Source of the DNA: a virus
DNA length: 20,413 nt
IMG/VR virus record: IMGVR_UViG_3300032046_000263
Location: 1 to 20,413 of that record
Strand: one strand, 5' to 3'
Part shown: positions 4,173 through 19,964 of the stretch, piece by piece
Layout of the letters: every line of letters begins with the position of its first letter
How positions within the stretch are numbered: position 1 is the stretch's first letter
Position numbers and translations under genes: made by a program
Notes under the pieces: model-generated
Seen by the model: the letters and a program-made list of their open reading frames with translations, nothing else
What the model was told of the DNA's origin: nothing
Database searches by the model: none

Positions 4173-4585
4173 GCCGACTCTGCAGCCGCTTGCCTCAGGG
4201 CCTCCTCGTGACTCTCAAACTGCCTGCCGTCGTCAGTCTTCCAGGCCACGGCTACCCAGCCCTCCCACACTGGCTCTATCCCCGGCCTCTTCACCTTGAG
4301 GTCGCCGCTGCAAGCAAGTCCAGCCTCGTGCAGCCCCGGCACGTCGCGCCTGCTGATCTTGGTGGCGCAGAAGTCGAGGTCGCCATAGCGCCGGTCGAAC
4401 CAGGAGTCTAACGCCACCCACCCGTTCGCCGGGCAGCGGGAGCACTCCACCCAGATCTTGTTCGGGGCGGCGAGGCGAGCGAACAGGAGGTCCCGATCCT
4501 CGTGGCCGCAGGGGATGAACCCCCGCGCATCCTCGAAGCGCATGAGCCACTGCAGCCACCGGGGCGCACGCCTGAGTCTAGTCAC
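4169..4585 (-). CDS. Hypothetical Cys-containing protein
   Basis: A 138-aa protein with scattered Cys pairs (IPCGHED near residue 26, ECSRCPANGW near 50, FCATK near 73, ACSGD near 92) which could bind zinc. An N-terminal Arg/Trp-rich helix precedes them and the C-terminus is a polar helix (SHEEALRQAAAESA). GTG start in a GTGA overlap with the HNH gene and GGAGGTG upstream, so it is co-translated with HNH. Family not recognised. Confidence 0.6.
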   Translation of the reverse strand: MTRLRRAPRWLQWLMRFEDARGFIPCGHEDRDLLFARLAAPNKIWVECSRCPANGWVALDSWFDRRYGDLDFCATKISRRDVPGLHEAGLACSGDLKVKRPGIEPVWEGWVAVAWKTDDGRQFESHEEALRQAAAESA

Positions 4586-5292
4586 GCTGCCACCTCCTCC
4601 CCCAGCTCAACGCCGAAACGGACGGCGGCCGAAGGCAAGTCCGGCGGCAACTTCGGGCGCGGGAAGCCGATCCCCAGGAGAGAGGGGAGGGGCCAAGTGT
4701 CCTTCTTCACATTGTTGCAGTGCTGGCAGGCGGGCCGGTGATTGCAGGGCCAGTCGGCCCCACCCTTGCCTACCGGCTTCACGTGGTCGTCATGCTGCGC
4801 GTCTGCACCGCACATCCAACAGCGGTTGCCCCAGAGGGCGAAACGTTGCTGGACTTGAGTGAGGGATGTGGAACCCGTAGCGCCACGGGCGCGGGCCTTG
4901 CGACGGCGACTACACTGCCTGATAACCTCGGGCTTCCGCTCGGCATAGGCCCTCTGCCGTGCGCCGCACTCCTCGCGGTGTTCCTGGTAGTATGCCCGGG
5001 CGTAGGCCTTCTTCGCCTCAGGGTCCTTCCGGTAGAACCGCCCGTGCTTCTGGCGGTTCGCGGCCTTGGCATACCAGCGGCGCGAGACCTCGCGCTGCCG
5101 GGCGCGTTCCTTCTCGGGGTCTTCGGCGAGCCGCTGCTTCTGGCGGTCGTTCCAGCGGTCAGCGTTCTCGACATAGTTCCCGTGCTTGCAGGCCTTGCAC
5201 CAGGACTGCAGGCCGTCCTTCGCCGACCGCTTCTTGCCAAACTCCGAGACGGGCTTGGCATCGCCACAGTGACAACAGACCTTCGTATCCAC
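4582..5292 (-). CDS. HNH endonuclease
   Basis: A 236-aa protein with three parts: an N-terminal zinc knuckle (C6-C7-H-C9 with C32-x2-C35), a long basic helical middle with repeated RQ/RRWYAKAA/KAYARAYYQ units (residues 45-135), and a C-terminal HNH nuclease domain: C158-W-M-C161, D169-H170, N184, C189-x2-C192 and following N-N-V-K-K. This is the Cys4-HNH homing-type layout often found as free-standing endonucleases in phages, which cut DNA and spread themselves by repair. GTG start with GGAGG 5 nt upstream. It interrupts the head module directly after the capsid gene and has its own promoter-like site and a structured leader. Confidence 0.85.
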   Translation of the reverse strand: MDTKVCCHCGDAKPVSEFGKKRSAKDGLQSWCKACKHGNYVENADRWNDRQKQRLAEDPEKERARQREVSRRWYAKAANRQKHGRFYRKDPEAKKAYARAYYQEHREECGARQRAYAERKPEVIRQCSRRRKARARGATGSTSLTQVQQRFALWGNRCWMCGADAQHDDHVKPVGKGGADWPCNHRPACQHCNNVKKDTWPLPSLLGIGFPRPKLPPDLPSAAVRFGVELGEEVAA

Positions 5293-5298
5293 AGTTTC

Positions 5299-5380
5299 CT
5301 CCCCAGGAACGACCAGGCCCCGCTGCGGTCCACCGGCTCCTGGGGAGAAGTACCGGGGCGCTCTATGCGGGGCCTGGTCG
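5299..5380 (-). promoter_or_regulatory. Structured leader of the HNH gene (crossing inverted repeats)
   Basis: Two perfect inverted repeats cross each other. Stem A: 5299-5308 with 5338-5347 (10 bp). Stem B: 5310-5323 with 5367-5380 (14 bp). The order in RNA is B', A', B, A, so they form a pseudoknot or two exclusive hairpins. The 3' arm of stem A contains most of the GGAGG ribosome site of the HNH gene (5302-5298), so closing A would hide it. Repeats are seen directly; control of translation is inferred. Confidence 0.6.
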
Positions 5381-5448
5381 AAGGTGTCAGTTCGTGGCGG
5401 CCAGAACGAGCGAACGCCCCGACCGCACTCCTCCCCAAGAGTAGGTAT

Positions 5449-5476
5449 AGGATACCCACCACGAGGAGGAGGTAAA
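5449..5476 (-). promoter_or_regulatory. Promoter-like site P3
   Basis: Minus strand: -35 TTTACC (5476-5471), 16-bp spacer ending GTGGG, -10 TATCCT (5454-5449). It lies between the capsid stop and the HNH leader and would give a leader of about 150 nt. Weaker match than P1, but same architecture. Confidence 0.4.
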
Positions 5477-5508
5477 CATGGACCCTAGTTCGCCATGACT
5501 ACGGCGAA

Positions 5509-6975
5509 CTATCTGTCCATGTTGTAGAAGCAGTGGCCGTAGGTGTAGGTCGAGGACACGGCGATGCGATCAGTCCACGCCCAGCGCGCCTTCGCCACGA
5601 CTGCCGTGTAGTCCCCCATGATGAAGCGGTCCGAGTCCATCTTGATCCCACGACGGACGCCAAGTAGCCAGCAGTTCTTGTTGAGGAGGTACATGCAGCT
5701 TTTTGACACACTTGAGGAATAGTACCCGGTAGCACTCAGCGCGTCATCTTTCATCAGACCACTGATGAACACGGGGGACCCCAGGTACTGCCCCACGGAG
5801 CCGGTGATGATGGCCGCCTGCGTCCCGATCTTGTCGACGGTGAGAAATTCCGTCGCGGCCATGATGTTTTTCTGGCCCACCCAGCCCACGACGAACATGA
5901 GCTGCTTCGGGTCGAGGCCATACTTCGTCATCGCGCAACGGCCGGTCAGGACCGTGCTGGTGGCGAAGGTCGAGAGGTCGGTGCTCAGGGACTGGGCTAA
6001 CAGGTCGTGACGCAGACCATCCCAAGCAAACACCGTTTTGGTTGTGGTCGTTTCTGCGTCCATATGTGGCGCTGTTGACTCATCTCCGTTGATGATCGCG
6101 TCCTCAAGTCCTTCCGCGAGCGCGGTCACCAGGTCGCGGGTCACCATCGGCATGACGGCGATGATCGAATCTTCCTCGAACTCAGAACTGAACGTCATTG
6201 CGGTCGCGAACGACTTGGCGGTCAACGTGGTCTTGCCCGTCGTCGGGTGAACCTCACTGAGGTCCGTCGCCTCACTTGACAGGAAGACCGTCGCCAGGCC
6301 GGTCATGTACGGACTGTAGAACGTCGGCGTCGTCATGTTGACCTGGGGGAACTGATTCGCGATCACGGTCGCGACGCGCAGGTCCTCCCAGAGCTGCCCC
6401 GACCAATCCGTCGGCACCCAGTCGGCGCCGTGGCTGGAGGTGGCCATGACCAGGGGGTCGTTTGCACTCTTAGCCCGACCCTCGCCGTAGCTCTTGACGA
6501 CGTTCTGCAGGCCCTCGCTCCGCGCCAGGGTGTTCTGCCAGCGCGGGAGTTGGGCGACCGAGCAGCCCTTGAGTTTGCTGACGAGCAGCATGGCGTCGCA
6601 GAACCGATGGAAGTTCTTGGTCCGCTCATCCTGCGGGGGCGCCTGGTACGGGTCGCCCATACCAGGGATGTACTCCGGCAGGTCGTGGGCCTTGGCATTC
6701 GCCAGGTCGGCCTGAATCTCGCGCATCCCATCCACGTCACCGTCGTGCTGGGCCTGCTTGTTGGTGGCCGTCGCGAGGGCGATAGTCTCGTCCTGCTTGG
6801 TCACCAGCACGTCCAGCCGGTCGGTGAGCGCCTTGAGCCTCTCGTCTACCACGTCGCCGTTGGCGATCTTGGCCTTGAGGGCCGTCACGACGGTCTCAAT
6901 GGCCTGCTGCGGGTTGTCCTCACTCACCGGCACCTCCAGGTACTCGGCGAGCTTCGCTACGTCAATCGTAGCCAT
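5509..6975 (-). CDS. Major capsid protein (HK97 fold)
   Basis: A 488-aa protein starting MATIDVAKLAEYLEVPV; I prefer this ATG over the one 9 bp upstream because GAGAGG then has a 9-nt spacing. Residues 1 to about 130 are helical and charged, with likely coiled coil (LTDRLDVLVTKQDETIALA): a scaffold (delta) domain expected to be removed by the protease encoded upstream. The rest is typical HK97-like capsid: MATSSHGADWVPTDWSGQL, then VIANQFPQVNMTTPTFYSPY, LTAKSFATAMTFSSEFEEDS, followed by a C-terminal strand-rich segment ending in CFYNMDR. It forms the icosahedral shell. Order protease then capsid is standard. A short hairpin precedes its ribosome site. Confidence 0.9.
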   Translation of the reverse strand: MATIDVAKLAEYLEVPVSEDNPQQAIETVVTALKAKIANGDVVDERLKALTDRLDVLVTKQDETIALATATNKQAQHDGDVDGMREIQADLANAKAHDLPEYIPGMGDPYQAPPQDERTKNFHRFCDAMLLVSKLKGCSVAQLPRWQNTLARSEGLQNVVKSYGEGRAKSANDPLVMATSSHGADWVPTDWSGQLWEDLRVATVIANQFPQVNMTTPTFYSPYMTGLATVFLSSEATDLSEVHPTTGKTTLTAKSFATAMTFSSEFEEDSIIAVMPMVTRDLVTALAEGLEDAIINGDESTAPHMDAETTTTKTVFAWDGLRHDLLAQSLSTDLSTFATSTVLTGRCAMTKYGLDPKQLMFVVGWVGQKNIMAATEFLTVDKIGTQAAIITGSVGQYLGSPVFISGLMKDDALSATGYYSSSVSKSCMYLLNKNCWLLGVRRGIKMDSDRFIMGDYTAVVAKARWAWTDRIAVSSTYTYGHCFYNMDR

Positions 6976-6999
6976 CTGAGTCATCCTCTCGAATCAAAG

Positions 7000-7021
7000 C
7001 GGCCTCCACTAAGGGAGGCCG
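7000..7021 (-). terminator. Hairpin upstream of the capsid gene
   Basis: CGGCCTCC (7000-7007) pairs with GGAGGCCG (7014-7021) with a 6-nt loop; the minus strand continues GCTTTGATTCG. The T-tract is short, so it may be a weak terminator or an mRNA-stabilising hairpin at the 5' end of the capsid message, 10 nt before its ribosome site. Confidence 0.5.
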
Positions 7022-7047
7022 TCTCTGTCTTCTGGTCTTGCGGACCC

Positions 7048-13920: not shown

Positions 13921-14352
13921 CTAGGCCGCCCGGTCCGATACCCGCACAATCCGAGGCCTCAGGAGTTCCTTCGGCTTGAAGCACAGCAGTTGCGACGAAC
14001 CGCCGTCCCCGCCGCCGAAGACCCGCAGTCTGCCCTCCGACTCAAGCCGATGCAATAGGGCCTTGAGCCGGACGACACGGATACCCAGAACTACTTCGGG
14101 CTTCTCATCCAACCCGTCGAAACAAGGGCCCGAGAGGAAGTGAAACCACCACTCGGCCTCGGTCGTCTCAATCCCGCTGGGCCTGCCACGGCTTTCTATC
14201 TCAACGGCAATGCGTTCGGTCTCACTGACCCGGAAGTCGCGCTTCACCTCCGCCAGGAGGCGGCCTTCCGTGGTCAGAATGTCGCGCAGCAGCCCCTCTG
14301 CGACTTCACCCTCGGGCAGGTCAAGATCGAAGCGATAGTTGCCGCCGCTCAC
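13921..14352 (-). CDS. PD-(D/E)XK-like nuclease
   Basis: A 143-aa protein starting at the GTG 14352-14350, which overlaps the TGA of the methyltransferase gene (GTGA); an upstream start would overlap it by 70 bp. Residues 30-75 read GRLLAEVKRDF, then RIAVEIESRGRPSGIETTEA and EWWFHFL. The E35-x-K37 pair after a hydrophobic strand, followed by E51/E53, a Gly-Arg-Pro-Ser-Gly loop and T-T-x-A-x-W-W, is the pattern of small phage PD-(D/E)XK nucleases. The C-terminal half may bind DNA. It may be a repair/recombination nuclease or partner of the neighbouring methylase. Confidence 0.65.
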   Translation of the reverse strand: MSGGNYRFDLDLPEGEVAEGLLRDILTTEGRLLAEVKRDFRVSETERIAVEIESRGRPSGIETTEAEWWFHFLSGPCFDGLDEKPEVVLGIRVVRLKALLHRLESEGRLRVFGGGDGGSSQLLCFKPKELLRPRIVRVSDRAA

Positions 14353-15647
14353 TGCCCGGCCGCCACCCTCTCGGCAGTCACGGCAGCCGATTTTGGCTCC
14401 TGGTCGAAGCCGACCCATTCACGCCCACAGGTCACGGCCGCTACCGCAGTGGTCCCGCTCCCCATGAACGGGTCGCATACCAGGTCGCCCTCGTTGCTCG
14501 ATACCTTGACTACCCTCTGCACTAGGGCCAGCGGCACCTGGTTGTGCCACTCCGTCTTCTCGGCGGAGACGTTCTTTACCAGGTCAAACTCCCACCAGTC
14601 GTAGGGGGTGACGCCTTCCTGTGGGGCCACTACCTCGCCGGTCTCCTCGTCCACATACCCCTCGCGCAGCCGCTTGATGCGCTTATCGTTCGGATTGCGG
14701 AAGGCCTGCGGATCGGCATGCTCGTTGAAGCTGTAGGTTGCACCCTTCGTGTAGAACAGGACTGTGCGTTGGGCCCGGGTCCAGTTGGTCGGGGATTGGC
14801 CGACGTTGCAGGGATACGCCCAGGTCAGCCACCGGCGGAAGGTGAAGAGGCGGTCCAGTTCCCGCTTCCACTCGGCGCAGACCTCGGGGTAGTGCATCAC
14901 GTAGAGACTGCCGGTGTCCTTGAGCTTCTTCCGCAGGAGCGCAAACCACTTGGCGCACCAGTCGTGGTATGCCTGGTCGGGCATCCGGTCCTGGTTCGTG
15001 CCGGAGTAGCTGACGCCGATGTTGTAGGGAGGGTCGGTGAAGACGAGGTCGAGGCTGGAGTCCTCCAGGAGCGCGAGGCCCTCCAGCACATCGAGGGTAT
15101 GGACCTTGCCGGGGAAGACCTTGGGGGCATCGGTCTCCTTCACATCGGCGTCAAGGTCCTGCGGCCACTCGTTCCCGTCCTCGTCATACAAAGTTGACAG
15201 CCGTTCGAGTTGGACGGCTGTGACAAGAGCGTGTCTGCGTCCCGTCACCGTGCTTGGCGCCACGCTAACGTCCCGGGCTATCCAGCGGTTCACCCTCCCG
15301 GGATGCAGGAGAAGCATCCGGTCCACGGCCGTCCGCTTCTCGGCGTTTGACAGCGGCTTGCCGTGCCCGACGTTGGCGAGGGCAGCCGCCTCAGCGGCCT
15401 CGTCCGTCGTGCCTTTCTTGACCTCCGCGTCCACCTCGGGAAGGTCCAGCCGCCGGGCCGCCTCGACCCGATGGTTCCCGTCCACCACCACCTTCGCGCC
15501 GTCCACCAGGAACACCCGGATGGGTGGCAGCCGGTCGAAGCAGGCCGTATAGGCCTTGACCGTCTCCTCATCCAGCCCCACCCTCACGCACAACTGCCGG
15601 GACTGCACCATGTCCAGGTCTGCGAGACGTACCTTCTCAGTCTTCAT
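14349..15647 (-). CDS. ParB-like domain fused to DNA methyltransferase
   Basis: A 432-aa protein. Residues 1-145 are a ParB/Srx-like domain: VVVDGNHRVEAARRLDLPEV (DGNHR at 56-60) followed by a helix-turn-helix stretch (VNRWIARDVSVAPSTVTGRR). Residues 180-432 are an amino-methyltransferase: catalytic T-DPPY-NIG (205-208) followed much later by the AdoMet loop DPFMGSGTT (392-400) and GREWVGFDQEP. DPPY before FxGxG indicates the beta-class, making N6-methyladenine or N4-methylcytosine. ParB-MTase fusions are common in phages and protect against restriction. ATG with GAGGAG 4 nt upstream. Its stop overlaps the nuclease start. Confidence 0.9.
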   Translation of the reverse strand: MKTEKVRLADLDMVQSRQLCVRVGLDEETVKAYTACFDRLPPIRVFLVDGAKVVVDGNHRVEAARRLDLPEVDAEVKKGTTDEAAEAAALANVGHGKPLSNAEKRTAVDRMLLLHPGRVNRWIARDVSVAPSTVTGRRHALVTAVQLERLSTLYDEDGNEWPQDLDADVKETDAPKVFPGKVHTLDVLEGLALLEDSSLDLVFTDPPYNIGVSYSGTNQDRMPDQAYHDWCAKWFALLRKKLKDTGSLYVMHYPEVCAEWKRELDRLFTFRRWLTWAYPCNVGQSPTNWTRAQRTVLFYTKGATYSFNEHADPQAFRNPNDKRIKRLREGYVDEETGEVVAPQEGVTPYDWWEFDLVKNVSAEKTEWHNQVPLALVQRVVKVSSNEGDLVCDPFMGSGTTAVAAVTCGREWVGFDQEPKSAAVTAERVAAGQ

Positions 15648-15887: not shown

Positions 15888-15963
15888 TGGCTGCGGGGGC
15901 AGGACTCGAACCTGCGACGATCCGGGTAACAGCCGGGCGCTCTGCCGTCTGAGCTACCCCGCA
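15888..15963 (-). tRNA. tRNA-Asn (anticodon GTT), CCA encoded
   Basis: All 76 positions fit the cloverleaf on the minus strand: acceptor TGCGGGG/CCCCGCA (7 bp), D arm GCTC-AGACGGCA-GAGC, anticodon loop CTGTTAC giving GTT, variable TCGTC, T arm GCAGG-TTCGAGT-CCTGC, discriminator G and encoded CCA. Anticodon stem CCCGG/CCGGA has four pairs and a C27-A43 mismatch. G73 and U35-U36 agree with bacterial AsnRS identity. A phage tRNA may compensate for codon use, but it could instead be a host gene if this is an integrated prophage. Confidence 0.95.
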
Positions 15964-16496: not shown

Positions 16497-16524
16497 AGTA
16501 TACCCATTCAGGCGGCGTTGTCAA
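16497..16524 (-). promoter_or_regulatory. Promoter P1 (sigma-70-like)
   Basis: Minus strand: perfect -35 TTGACA (16524-16519), 16-bp spacer ending ATGGG, -10 TATACT (16502-16497). It overlaps the last codons of the 149-aa gene. It would drive the 107-aa gene, tRNA and methyltransferase segment. Best promoter match in the window. Confidence 0.7.
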
Positions 16525-18651: not shown

Positions 18652-19587
18652 CTACGCGGTGCAGGTGCAGTGCTCGAACGCGGTCAGGCCCACGGCCGCC
18701 CACATGGGCTTACCTTCCTTGCACAGAGCAATCGGGCAAGTAGCTCCGGCAGAACGCAGGGCGGCCATTATGTCGCGGTAGGCATCGAAGCGGGCGCATG
18801 GCTCAACCCGCCACGGGTGCATCGGTTTCTCGGGGACCTCGTAGACCTGGGAGTCCGTCAGGACGAAGACCTTGCCGGGTTGTTCCCTCTCCACCAGCGC
18901 CTGCAACTGAGGCGGCCACTTCCGGTACGTCGCCGCCGTCGCGCGGAGGGTGCCGAGGGTGATGAGTTCGGGCCAACCGCCTTCGTTGTAACGCCACGCT
19001 AGGAACTGCCCCCGCAAGGAGAAGTTATCGGGCTTGAGCGGGTCCATGCGCCAACGGACGCGCCAATCTTGGTTACGCAACCATACCATGCGCCCGACGC
19101 CATCAGCGGTATTCGATGTCCCTTGCTCCCACTCCTCATACCCTCCCGCGCTCACCTCCACCACCACGTGCGGGTGCGGCGCGGCGAGCGGCACATTGAC
19201 GCTCTTGGTGCGCAGCAGCAGCGTGTGGCCGTGCGGGTTGTGCTCCGGCGCGAACCTCGGCACCAGCCACTTGCTGTGATGGAGGACGGGCTCCACGAGG
19301 GCATCGCAAGACTCGCCGGCGACGAGGACATTGCCATGCACCGGCAGTCGCCCTCGCAGTCTCCACTCGAACCGCTCATCGGAGAGGCGGAGCCACCGAT
19401 CCACCGCCTTCTCCAGGTCCGCCTGCTCGTAGACGCGGTACTCGTTGCGGCCGACACGCGCTGGCGTCGTGCCCTCACGATAGCAGTAGGTACAGGCCAA
19501 GGGGCACTTGCCCGCCGACAGCCTCAGGTGCCAGAAGCCGGGGCAGCCCTCTCGCGCGTCGAAGTGCTTCACGAGGCCGGTGGGCAT
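18652..19587 (-). CDS. Radical SAM protein, spore photoproduct lyase family
   Basis: A 311-aa protein from the ATG at 19587, which has GGAGG 5 nt upstream; the ATG at 19629 would add 14 Arg-rich residues made from a repeat. The iron-sulfur motif is C28-PLA-C32-TY-C35. Further matches to the spore photoproduct lyase family: VAGESCDALVEP (89-100), LLLRTKSVNV (123-132), VVVEVSAGG (141-149), RWRMDPLKP (178-186), ITLGTLRA (209-216), IALCKE (286-291) and C-terminal CTC. True lyases revert thymine spore photoproduct in DNA by radical chemistry. Here the substrate could be a DNA lesion or a modified base; not decided by sequence. Confidence 0.8.
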   Translation of the reverse strand: MPTGLVKHFDAREGCPGFWHLRLSAGKCPLACTYCYREGTTPARVGRNEYRVYEQADLEKAVDRWLRLSDERFEWRLRGRLPVHGNVLVAGESCDALVEPVLHHSKWLVPRFAPEHNPHGHTLLLRTKSVNVPLAAPHPHVVVEVSAGGYEEWEQGTSNTADGVGRMVWLRNQDWRVRWRMDPLKPDNFSLRGQFLAWRYNEGGWPELITLGTLRATAATYRKWPPQLQALVEREQPGKVFVLTDSQVYEVPEKPMHPWRVEPCARFDAYRDIMAALRSAGATCPIALCKEGKPMWAAVGLTAFEHCTCTA

Positions 19588-19592
19588 ACGTA

Positions 19593-19964
19593 CCTCCATC
19601 CGTTCGCGGCGAGCAGGTCGGCGGATCATGGGGTCACTCGTCCTCCACGAAGCGCAGGGGCGGGTACACCTTGGGCGGCTTTTCGACCCTCGGCTTGCGG
19701 TTCCTGGGTCTTGGCCCAGGCGGGGGATCGGGCGGCCTCAGCAGATGCCGCTCCCAACAGCACTGCATCACGAAGATGTTCCGGTCGCATTCGTGACAGA
19801 CCTCGCTACCGGAAGGGCGGCACCCAGTGGTCGCTAGTTGCAGAGCAGCCCTCTGCAAAGCTCGGCGCAGTTCGGACGGGTCAGCTTGGTCGGAGGGATG
19901 TTGGAACTTGCCCGGAATAGCGGTCATAGTCTCCTCCATCCGTTCTCAGCGAGCAGGTCGGCGG
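19593..19964. repeat. 32-bp direct repeats around the 97-aa gene
   Basis: 19593-19624 and 19933-19964 match at 30 of 32 positions. The right copy encodes the end of the ASCH protein (PADLLAENGWR) and the ribosome site of the 97-aa gene; the left copy provides the ribosome site of the radical-SAM gene. The intervening unit is exactly one gene. Confidence 0.85.
19634..19927 (-). CDS. Hypothetical Cys-containing protein, possible cassette gene
   Basis: A 97-aa protein (MTAIPGKFQHPSDQADPSEL...) with an ATG overlapping the ASCH stop (ATGA) and GGAGGAG 3 nt upstream. The middle has GCRPSGSEVCHECDRNIFVM then QCCWERH, a plausible zinc site (CHEC plus CC...H), and the C-terminus is Pro/Arg/Lys-rich (PPDPPPGPRPRNRKPRVEKP), probably disordered. 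Family unknown. It is the only gene between two 32-bp repeats. Confidence 0.6.
   Translation of the reverse strand: MTAIPGKFQHPSDQADPSELRRALQRAALQLATTGCRPSGSEVCHECDRNIFVMQCCWERHLLRPPDPPPGPRPRNRKPRVEKPPKVYPPLRFVEDE

Follow-up and report, generated by a model that had tools for sequence, protein, structure and literature searches.

An HNH endonuclease gene lies right behind the major capsid gene of this virus, and two inverted repeats cross each other at its ribosome site. The question raised by this locus is whether the RNA between the two genes controls translation of the nuclease, as the original prediction proposed in the form of a pseudoknot or a two-state switch. The window, i.e. the whole 20.4-kb stretch (20,413 nucleotides) that was analysed, belongs to a tailed phage whose head genes are encoded on the minus strand. 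The genes needed in the following are:

12480-11167, minus strand: terminase gene (profile matches)
11096-8907, minus strand: portal gene (profile matches)
8553-7048, minus strand: protease gene (profile matches)
5509-6984, minus strand: major capsid gene, HK97-type, intact, directly upstream of the leader (Pfam PF05065, 35.7 bits; PHROG 10, major head protein)
5511-5509, minus strand: capsid stop codon
5298-5304, minus strand: Shine-Dalgarno (SD) sequence GGGGAGG of the HNH gene, read from the sequence
4582-5292, minus strand: HNH endonuclease gene, 236 aa, GTG start (Pfam PF01844, PHROG 1035)

The capsid reading frame is unbroken from 5509 to 6984, as had been claimed for it. Downstream on the minus strand it is followed by the HNH gene and then by head-tail genes; between the capsid stop and the start of the HNH gene is a gap of 216-230 nt that holds no convincing gene. 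Elsewhere in the window, also on the minus strand, we observed a tRNA-Asn (GTT) gene (15888-15963), a ParB-like N-terminal domain fused to a DNA methyltransferase (14349-15647, PHROG matches) and a 325-aa protein with a CPLACTYCY motif (18652-19629) which, by eye, resembles radical-SAM/spore-photoproduct-lyase-like enzymes.

The HNH protein consists of an N-terminal CxxC zinc-binding-like region and a C-terminal HNH domain. This domain scored 22.4 bits against PF01844 (curated cut-off 21.4), and the protein matched the endonuclease VII family PHROG 1035 with an E value of 1.3e-20. Its relatives are 25-40% identical, and several likewise start near the same N-terminal motif. In an alignment of 13 proteins, D169-H170, N184, N193 and the cysteines 158, 161, 189 and 192 were conserved or nearly so. 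Judged from the profile score above the cut-off and the conserved catalytic residues, the protein is a free-standing HNH endonuclease (PF01844); its Pfam matches comprise HNH models only, with no RuvC.

The two repeats announced before the HNH gene were found on the minus strand at the expected coordinates. Their arms, in the order in which they would be transcribed, are:

5380-5367, minus strand: arm B, CGACCAGGCCCCGC, perfect 14-bp repeat with B'
5347-5338, minus strand: arm A, anti-SD, CTCCCCAGGA, perfect 10-bp repeat with A'; its partner is A' or a further arm, A0
5323-5310, minus strand: arm B', GCGGGGCCTGGTCG, partner of B
5308-5299, minus strand: arm A', contains the SD, TCCTGGGGAG

As the order is B, A, B', A', the stems B:B' and A:A' cross. 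Because the SD lies at 5304-5298 and the GTG start at 5292, the spacing is 5 nt. The 10-bp arm carries the HNH ribosome site as predicted. Reading the sequence with G-U pairs allowed extends A:A' to 14 pairs, 5297-5310 against 5336-5349. Of 3000 dinucleotide-shuffled versions of the 216-nt leader, 0 had a perfect repeat of at least 14 bp and 3.3% had one of at least 10 bp; with the SD arm held fixed, a partner of at least 10 bases was seen in 0.45% of shuffled leaders. B:B' is moreover the sole perfect 14-bp repeat within a 120-nt span in the whole contig. The crossing-repeat structure is thus non-random.

The crossing repeats turned out to be part of a larger structure that fills the whole gap and that the original prediction had overlooked, including arm A0, a further arm C and a hairpin over the capsid stop codon (5523-5475). 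The RNA from 5530 to 5293 folds at -131 kcal/mol (z -7.5), with 0 of 200 shuffles as stable. Among 240 minus-strand windows scanned, 5538-5368 was the most extreme (z -7.3); the RNA of the gap is the strongest RNA signal in the contig. Four hairpins were distinguished, each of which, taken singly, was matched by 0 of 200 shuffles:

5475-5523, minus strand: HP1, 20 bp, the most extreme hairpin (z -8.1), with the capsid stop codon inside it
5428-5471, minus strand: HP2, arm C paired with A0, 19 bp with four G-U pairs
5397-5426, minus strand: HP3, 12 bp with four G-U pairs
5310-5380, minus strand: HP4, B:B' plus an inner stem (-46 kcal/mol, z -5.4)

HP2 and HP3 depend on eight G-U pairs, and because of such pairs the minus-strand RNA is far more stable than the plus-strand RNA: -131 versus -112 kcal/mol for the intergenic RNA, -28.0 versus -17.8 for HP2 and -20.5 versus -6.7 for HP3. 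Therefore, the fold signal is assigned to the gene-strand RNA, and this strand preference argues for the RNA level and for the minus (gene) strand. Overall, the structure is real, non-random and at the RNA level, and it may serve translation control, a function predicted from models and by analogy. We tentatively favour the reading that the leader is a structured gene-strand RNA for translation control or insulation of the HNH gene, to which we would give a little short of an even chance.

Second to this translation-control or insulation reading we rank a capsid 3'-end or terminator array, which is rather unlikely. Here, the hairpins would chiefly serve the capsid message: HP1 and HP2/HP3 would end transcription or protect the 3' end, and HP4 and the SD complementarity would be by-products of a purine/pyrimidine-rich palindromic region. 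Consistent with this, the most extreme hairpin, HP1, starts within the final codons of the capsid gene. The SD is not closed more tightly than the SDs of other genes: among 30 starts in the contig, its opening cost in the full leader ranks 18th. That capsid genes are highly expressed and often have terminators behind them also counts in favour of this reading. In addition, a strong hairpin (GGCCTCC...GGAGGCC, followed by GCTTTGATT) lies just before the capsid gene at 6995-7027 on the minus strand, in the gap that separates the protease and capsid genes; a 169-nt fold around it reached a z of -4.8. Because this hairpin precedes the capsid start, structured RNA borders the capsid gene on both sides. 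However, a search of the minus strand at the leader revealed no hairpin of the terminator type with a T run. Both the 14-bp B:B' and the specific partner of the SD exceed chance, and their place is at the HNH start, 130-210 nt past the capsid stop.

Returning to the control of HNH translation, the leader contains further arms that compete with the crossing repeats:

5471-5462, minus strand: arm C, partner of A0 (HP2 fold)
5427-5446, minus strand: arm A0, SD-like, shares 11 of 12 nt with A'; best upstream partner of A
5412-5421, minus strand: 5' arm of a 10-nt repeat collinear with A0:A (repeat search, fold)
5354-5363, minus strand: 3' arm of the same repeat (repeat search, fold)

A0 is complementary to A at 80% over 20 nt, thus a second partner of A and a rival of A'; A0 and A' form an 11/12 direct repeat, 132 nt apart. 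Together with the repeat 5421-5412/5363-5354, A0:A makes up a long hairpin from 5446 to 5332 (z -5.84). Upstream partners as good as the best ones of A, of A0 and of the SD region turned up in 0.25%, 0.25% and 0/2000 shuffles, respectively. Duplex energies were -32.8 kcal/mol for B:B', -31.5 for A0:A, -27.6 for C:A0 and -27.4 for the SD region, i.e. the pairings C:A0, A0:A, A:A' and B:B' are near-equal in strength and partly exclusive. In the case of the 5442-5262 RNA, the B:B' fold (-87.4) and the A0:A fold (-87.3) differ by 0.1 kcal/mol, with high barriers between nested folds.

It had been proposed that B:B' forms first during transcription and keeps the site open, and that A:A' closes it. 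In nested ensembles of the growing RNA, A0:A is dominant as soon as A emerges and B:B' replaces it when B' is complete, so that B:B' is not the first fold. A:A' stays at about zero throughout the full-length nested ensembles, and the unpaired probability of the SD ends at about 0.4-0.5. Placing the 5' end at 5370-5347 removes B but leaves A in the RNA; A:A' then forms, and the SD needs 10.5-12.5 kcal/mol to open, compared to about 4-5 kcal/mol with B present (nested models). As loss of B raises the opening cost, B:B' holds A off the SD in the nested models, and this half of the proposal stands. In the same models, closing by A:A' is seen for RNAs from which B is cut off, whereas A:A' loses in every full-length transcript and is not appreciably populated there; the simple two-state switch is only partly supported. 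Regarding sequestration in long transcripts, a complementary arm of 14 pairs (with G-U) is present, but in the nested ensemble of the full-length RNA the SD stays about half open, and its opening cost (18th of 30) is not unusual for this contig. A greedy model of co-transcriptional folding, which is crude and was evaluated for the runs with 5' ends at 5530, 5508 and 5442, gave C:A0 plus B:B' for 5530 and 5508 when the barrier threshold was 9 kcal/mol; for 5442 it gave A0:A with thresholds of both 9 and 14. Because the 5530 run changed at other thresholds, this model result is only suggestive.

If A:A' were nevertheless to form in long RNAs, it could do so in a pseudoknotted translational operator, in which B:B' and A:A' together close the SD until a protein (e.g. 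the HNH protein or a host ribosomal protein) or unfolding by a ribosome opens it. Two perfect stems do cross on the SD, and the loops of 19, 14 and 1 nt would make a continuous B'-A' helix geometrically possible. Pseudoknot translational operators are known from E. coli S4 (alpha operon) and rpsO/S15 and from mycobacterial rpsO/S15 (PMC10931766). For the 5442-5262 RNA, the estimated energy of B:B' plus A:A' (-80 to -93 kcal/mol, with pseudoknot penalties uncertain by several kcal/mol) brackets the nested folds, whose optimum is -89.1. With the inner loops open, as the 10-bp A:A' probably requires, the pseudoknot would however lie about 6-9 kcal/mol above the nested optimum of this RNA, and we consider such an operator distinctly improbable.

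How the translation-control leader might work in detail would depend on where its transcripts begin. The original prediction had named a promoter within the gap:

5449-5476, minus strand: candidate promoter P3, TTTACC-16-TATCCT, 8/12 match

This assignment found no support. A match of 8/12 is at chance level, being equalled in 16% of shuffles, and the -10 of P3 falls in the palindromic loop of the C:A0 hairpin. A scan limited to sigma-70-like promoters found no leader promoter at 9/12, nor, with 8/12 as the best score, a promoter whose transcripts would drop a blocking arm as in I-TevI and mobE. The best minus-strand match in the contig is TTGACA-16-TATACT (11/12) at 16497-16524, in the upstream small-gene region and away from the HNH gene. 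We also considered a leader peptide after A0 and rejected it: the only candidate GTG stands 1 nt after GGAGG, a bad spacing.

In the mechanism that we propose, the leader would set the translation level of the HNH endonuclease and insulate its gene from the capsid mRNA. In the order C-A0-A-A', each of the two anti-SD arms (C, A) would be followed by one of the two SD-like arms (A0, A'). On a capsid read-through RNA, which contains C, C:A0 would form first and then B:B' (HP4), whose loop would hold A, from where A could reach the SD only as a pseudoknot. On a putative shorter RNA that starts or is cut at about 5460-5437, C would be lost and A0 would capture A in the long hairpin, leaving the SD largely free of A. 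The most specific version of this, a switch that senses the 5' end by C-A0-A-A' and the B:B' clamp, keeping HNH off on capsid read-through mRNA and turning it on after loss of arm C by initiation or RNase cleavage, seems improbable to us.

Further readings place the repeats outside translation altogether. They could be a DNA-level feature, i.e. protein-binding dyads, a replication or packaging site, or what is left of a mobile insertion, with the A0/A' direct repeat at its borders. The long dyads and the 11/12 repeat would fit, but the G-U pairs favour minus-strand RNA over the plus strand and DNA dyads, and the 120 nt between the direct repeats carry no terminal inverted repeats by eye, so that this is a very improbable reading. 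Finally, the remnant of a group I intron, as mentioned in the original prediction, or of an IscB-type (HEARO/omegaRNA) guide RNA would explain structured RNA immediately before an HNH gene and is hardly credible, since Rfam covariance models gave no match to a group I intron (4550-5560) or to HEARO RNA at E up to 5, the 236-aa protein is HNH-only and the capsid frame is intact. On the whole window, Rfam detected only the tRNA elsewhere, and with permissive settings at the leader locus it gave chance matches only.

Relatives of the virus and of its leader were then considered. Searches of viral contigs with the HNH, capsid, portal and terminase proteins yielded distant relatives only, and those of bacterial genomes with HNH and capsid yielded none. 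The leader DNA or its pattern gave no match, or chance-level matches, in viral contigs, phages and plasmids. Among 16 HNH relatives (25-40% identity), none has a perfect 10-bp repeat in the upstream 216 nt; most of them abut or overlap the upstream gene and so mostly have no leader. Two of the 16 (L001 and L026) have a clearly structured upstream region, of other kinds. In the case of L001, the nearest relative from viral contigs, the start-site hairpin alone is not significant; with a separate strong GC hairpin before it (509-537), the 67-nt stretch becomes significant (z -4.0). By eye, this HNH relative (L001:509-1346) has a probable small-terminase gene on one side and, on the other, a gene resembling that of a terminase large subunit. 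L026, the HNH gene of Samisti12, was rejected as a leader analogue, as its upstream structure resembles a terminator with a small ORF behind it. The crossing stems were to be given up if homologues kept neither of them; this is formally the case at 25-40% identity, a comparison that is silent on close relatives. Judged from these upstream sequences, the leader is not an old family trait of the HNH relatives, and the comparison says no more than that.

If the predicted control of HNH translation is true, RNA-level control of phage-borne nucleases is not confined to the T4 group but reaches a phage of high GC content unrelated to it, and the locus shows how a potentially harmful nuclease gene can sit right behind a virus capsid gene. 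If it is wrong, no other RNA in the contig is as structured as this region, which then probably affects the capsid mRNA.

The leader can be compared to several known systems, although a small literature sample contained no description of an SD/anti-SD cascade for phage nuclease genes. In four-arm attenuators such as the trp leader and erm translational attenuation, arms 1:2 and 3:4 compete with 2:3, and in erm the SD lies in arm 4. The arms described here follow the same scheme, and their SD occupies arm 4 too; unlike in these attenuators, no start codon for a translated leader peptide stands at a workable spacing after A0. Pseudoknot operators share the crossing stems at the ribosome site, but no repressor is known here and the pseudoknot is a predicted candidate. 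Type I toxin mRNAs, e.g. H. pylori aapA3, contain successive anti-SD hairpins that act in turn during transcription (PMC6733600). Several anti-SD sequences are common to both, whereas in aapA3 anti-SDs flank the SD on both sides, the two ends of the mRNA interact and an antisense RNA takes part; this leader showed none of these features.

Closer likenesses are found among phage nuclease genes. In seg43 of Aeromonas phage 25, a very stable hairpin stands immediately before the SD (PMC2988022). Similarly, the SD here lies just past a stem base, with B:B' ending at 5310 and A' beginning at 5308; in contrast to seg43, the HP4 loop carries an anti-SD and more competing arms lie upstream. RNA that covers the SD is known for T4 I-TevI, I-TevII, I-TevIII and segB and for mobE of Aeromonas phage Aeh1 (PMC2988022). 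Shared with these are a nuclease gene (mobE is also HNH), a leader RNA that could cover the SD and an effect that would depend on the transcript start site. The T4 and Aeh1 systems have one local hairpin, lost in late transcripts, whereas this leader has several alternating SD and anti-SD arms and a crossing 14-bp stem, without a credible promoter. Because of this missing promoter, and because in the full-length models the SD stays about half accessible, we do not file the leader as a member of the T4/Aeh1 type. By analogy, if its function holds, it would work like the homing-endonuclease hairpins of T4 and Aeh1.
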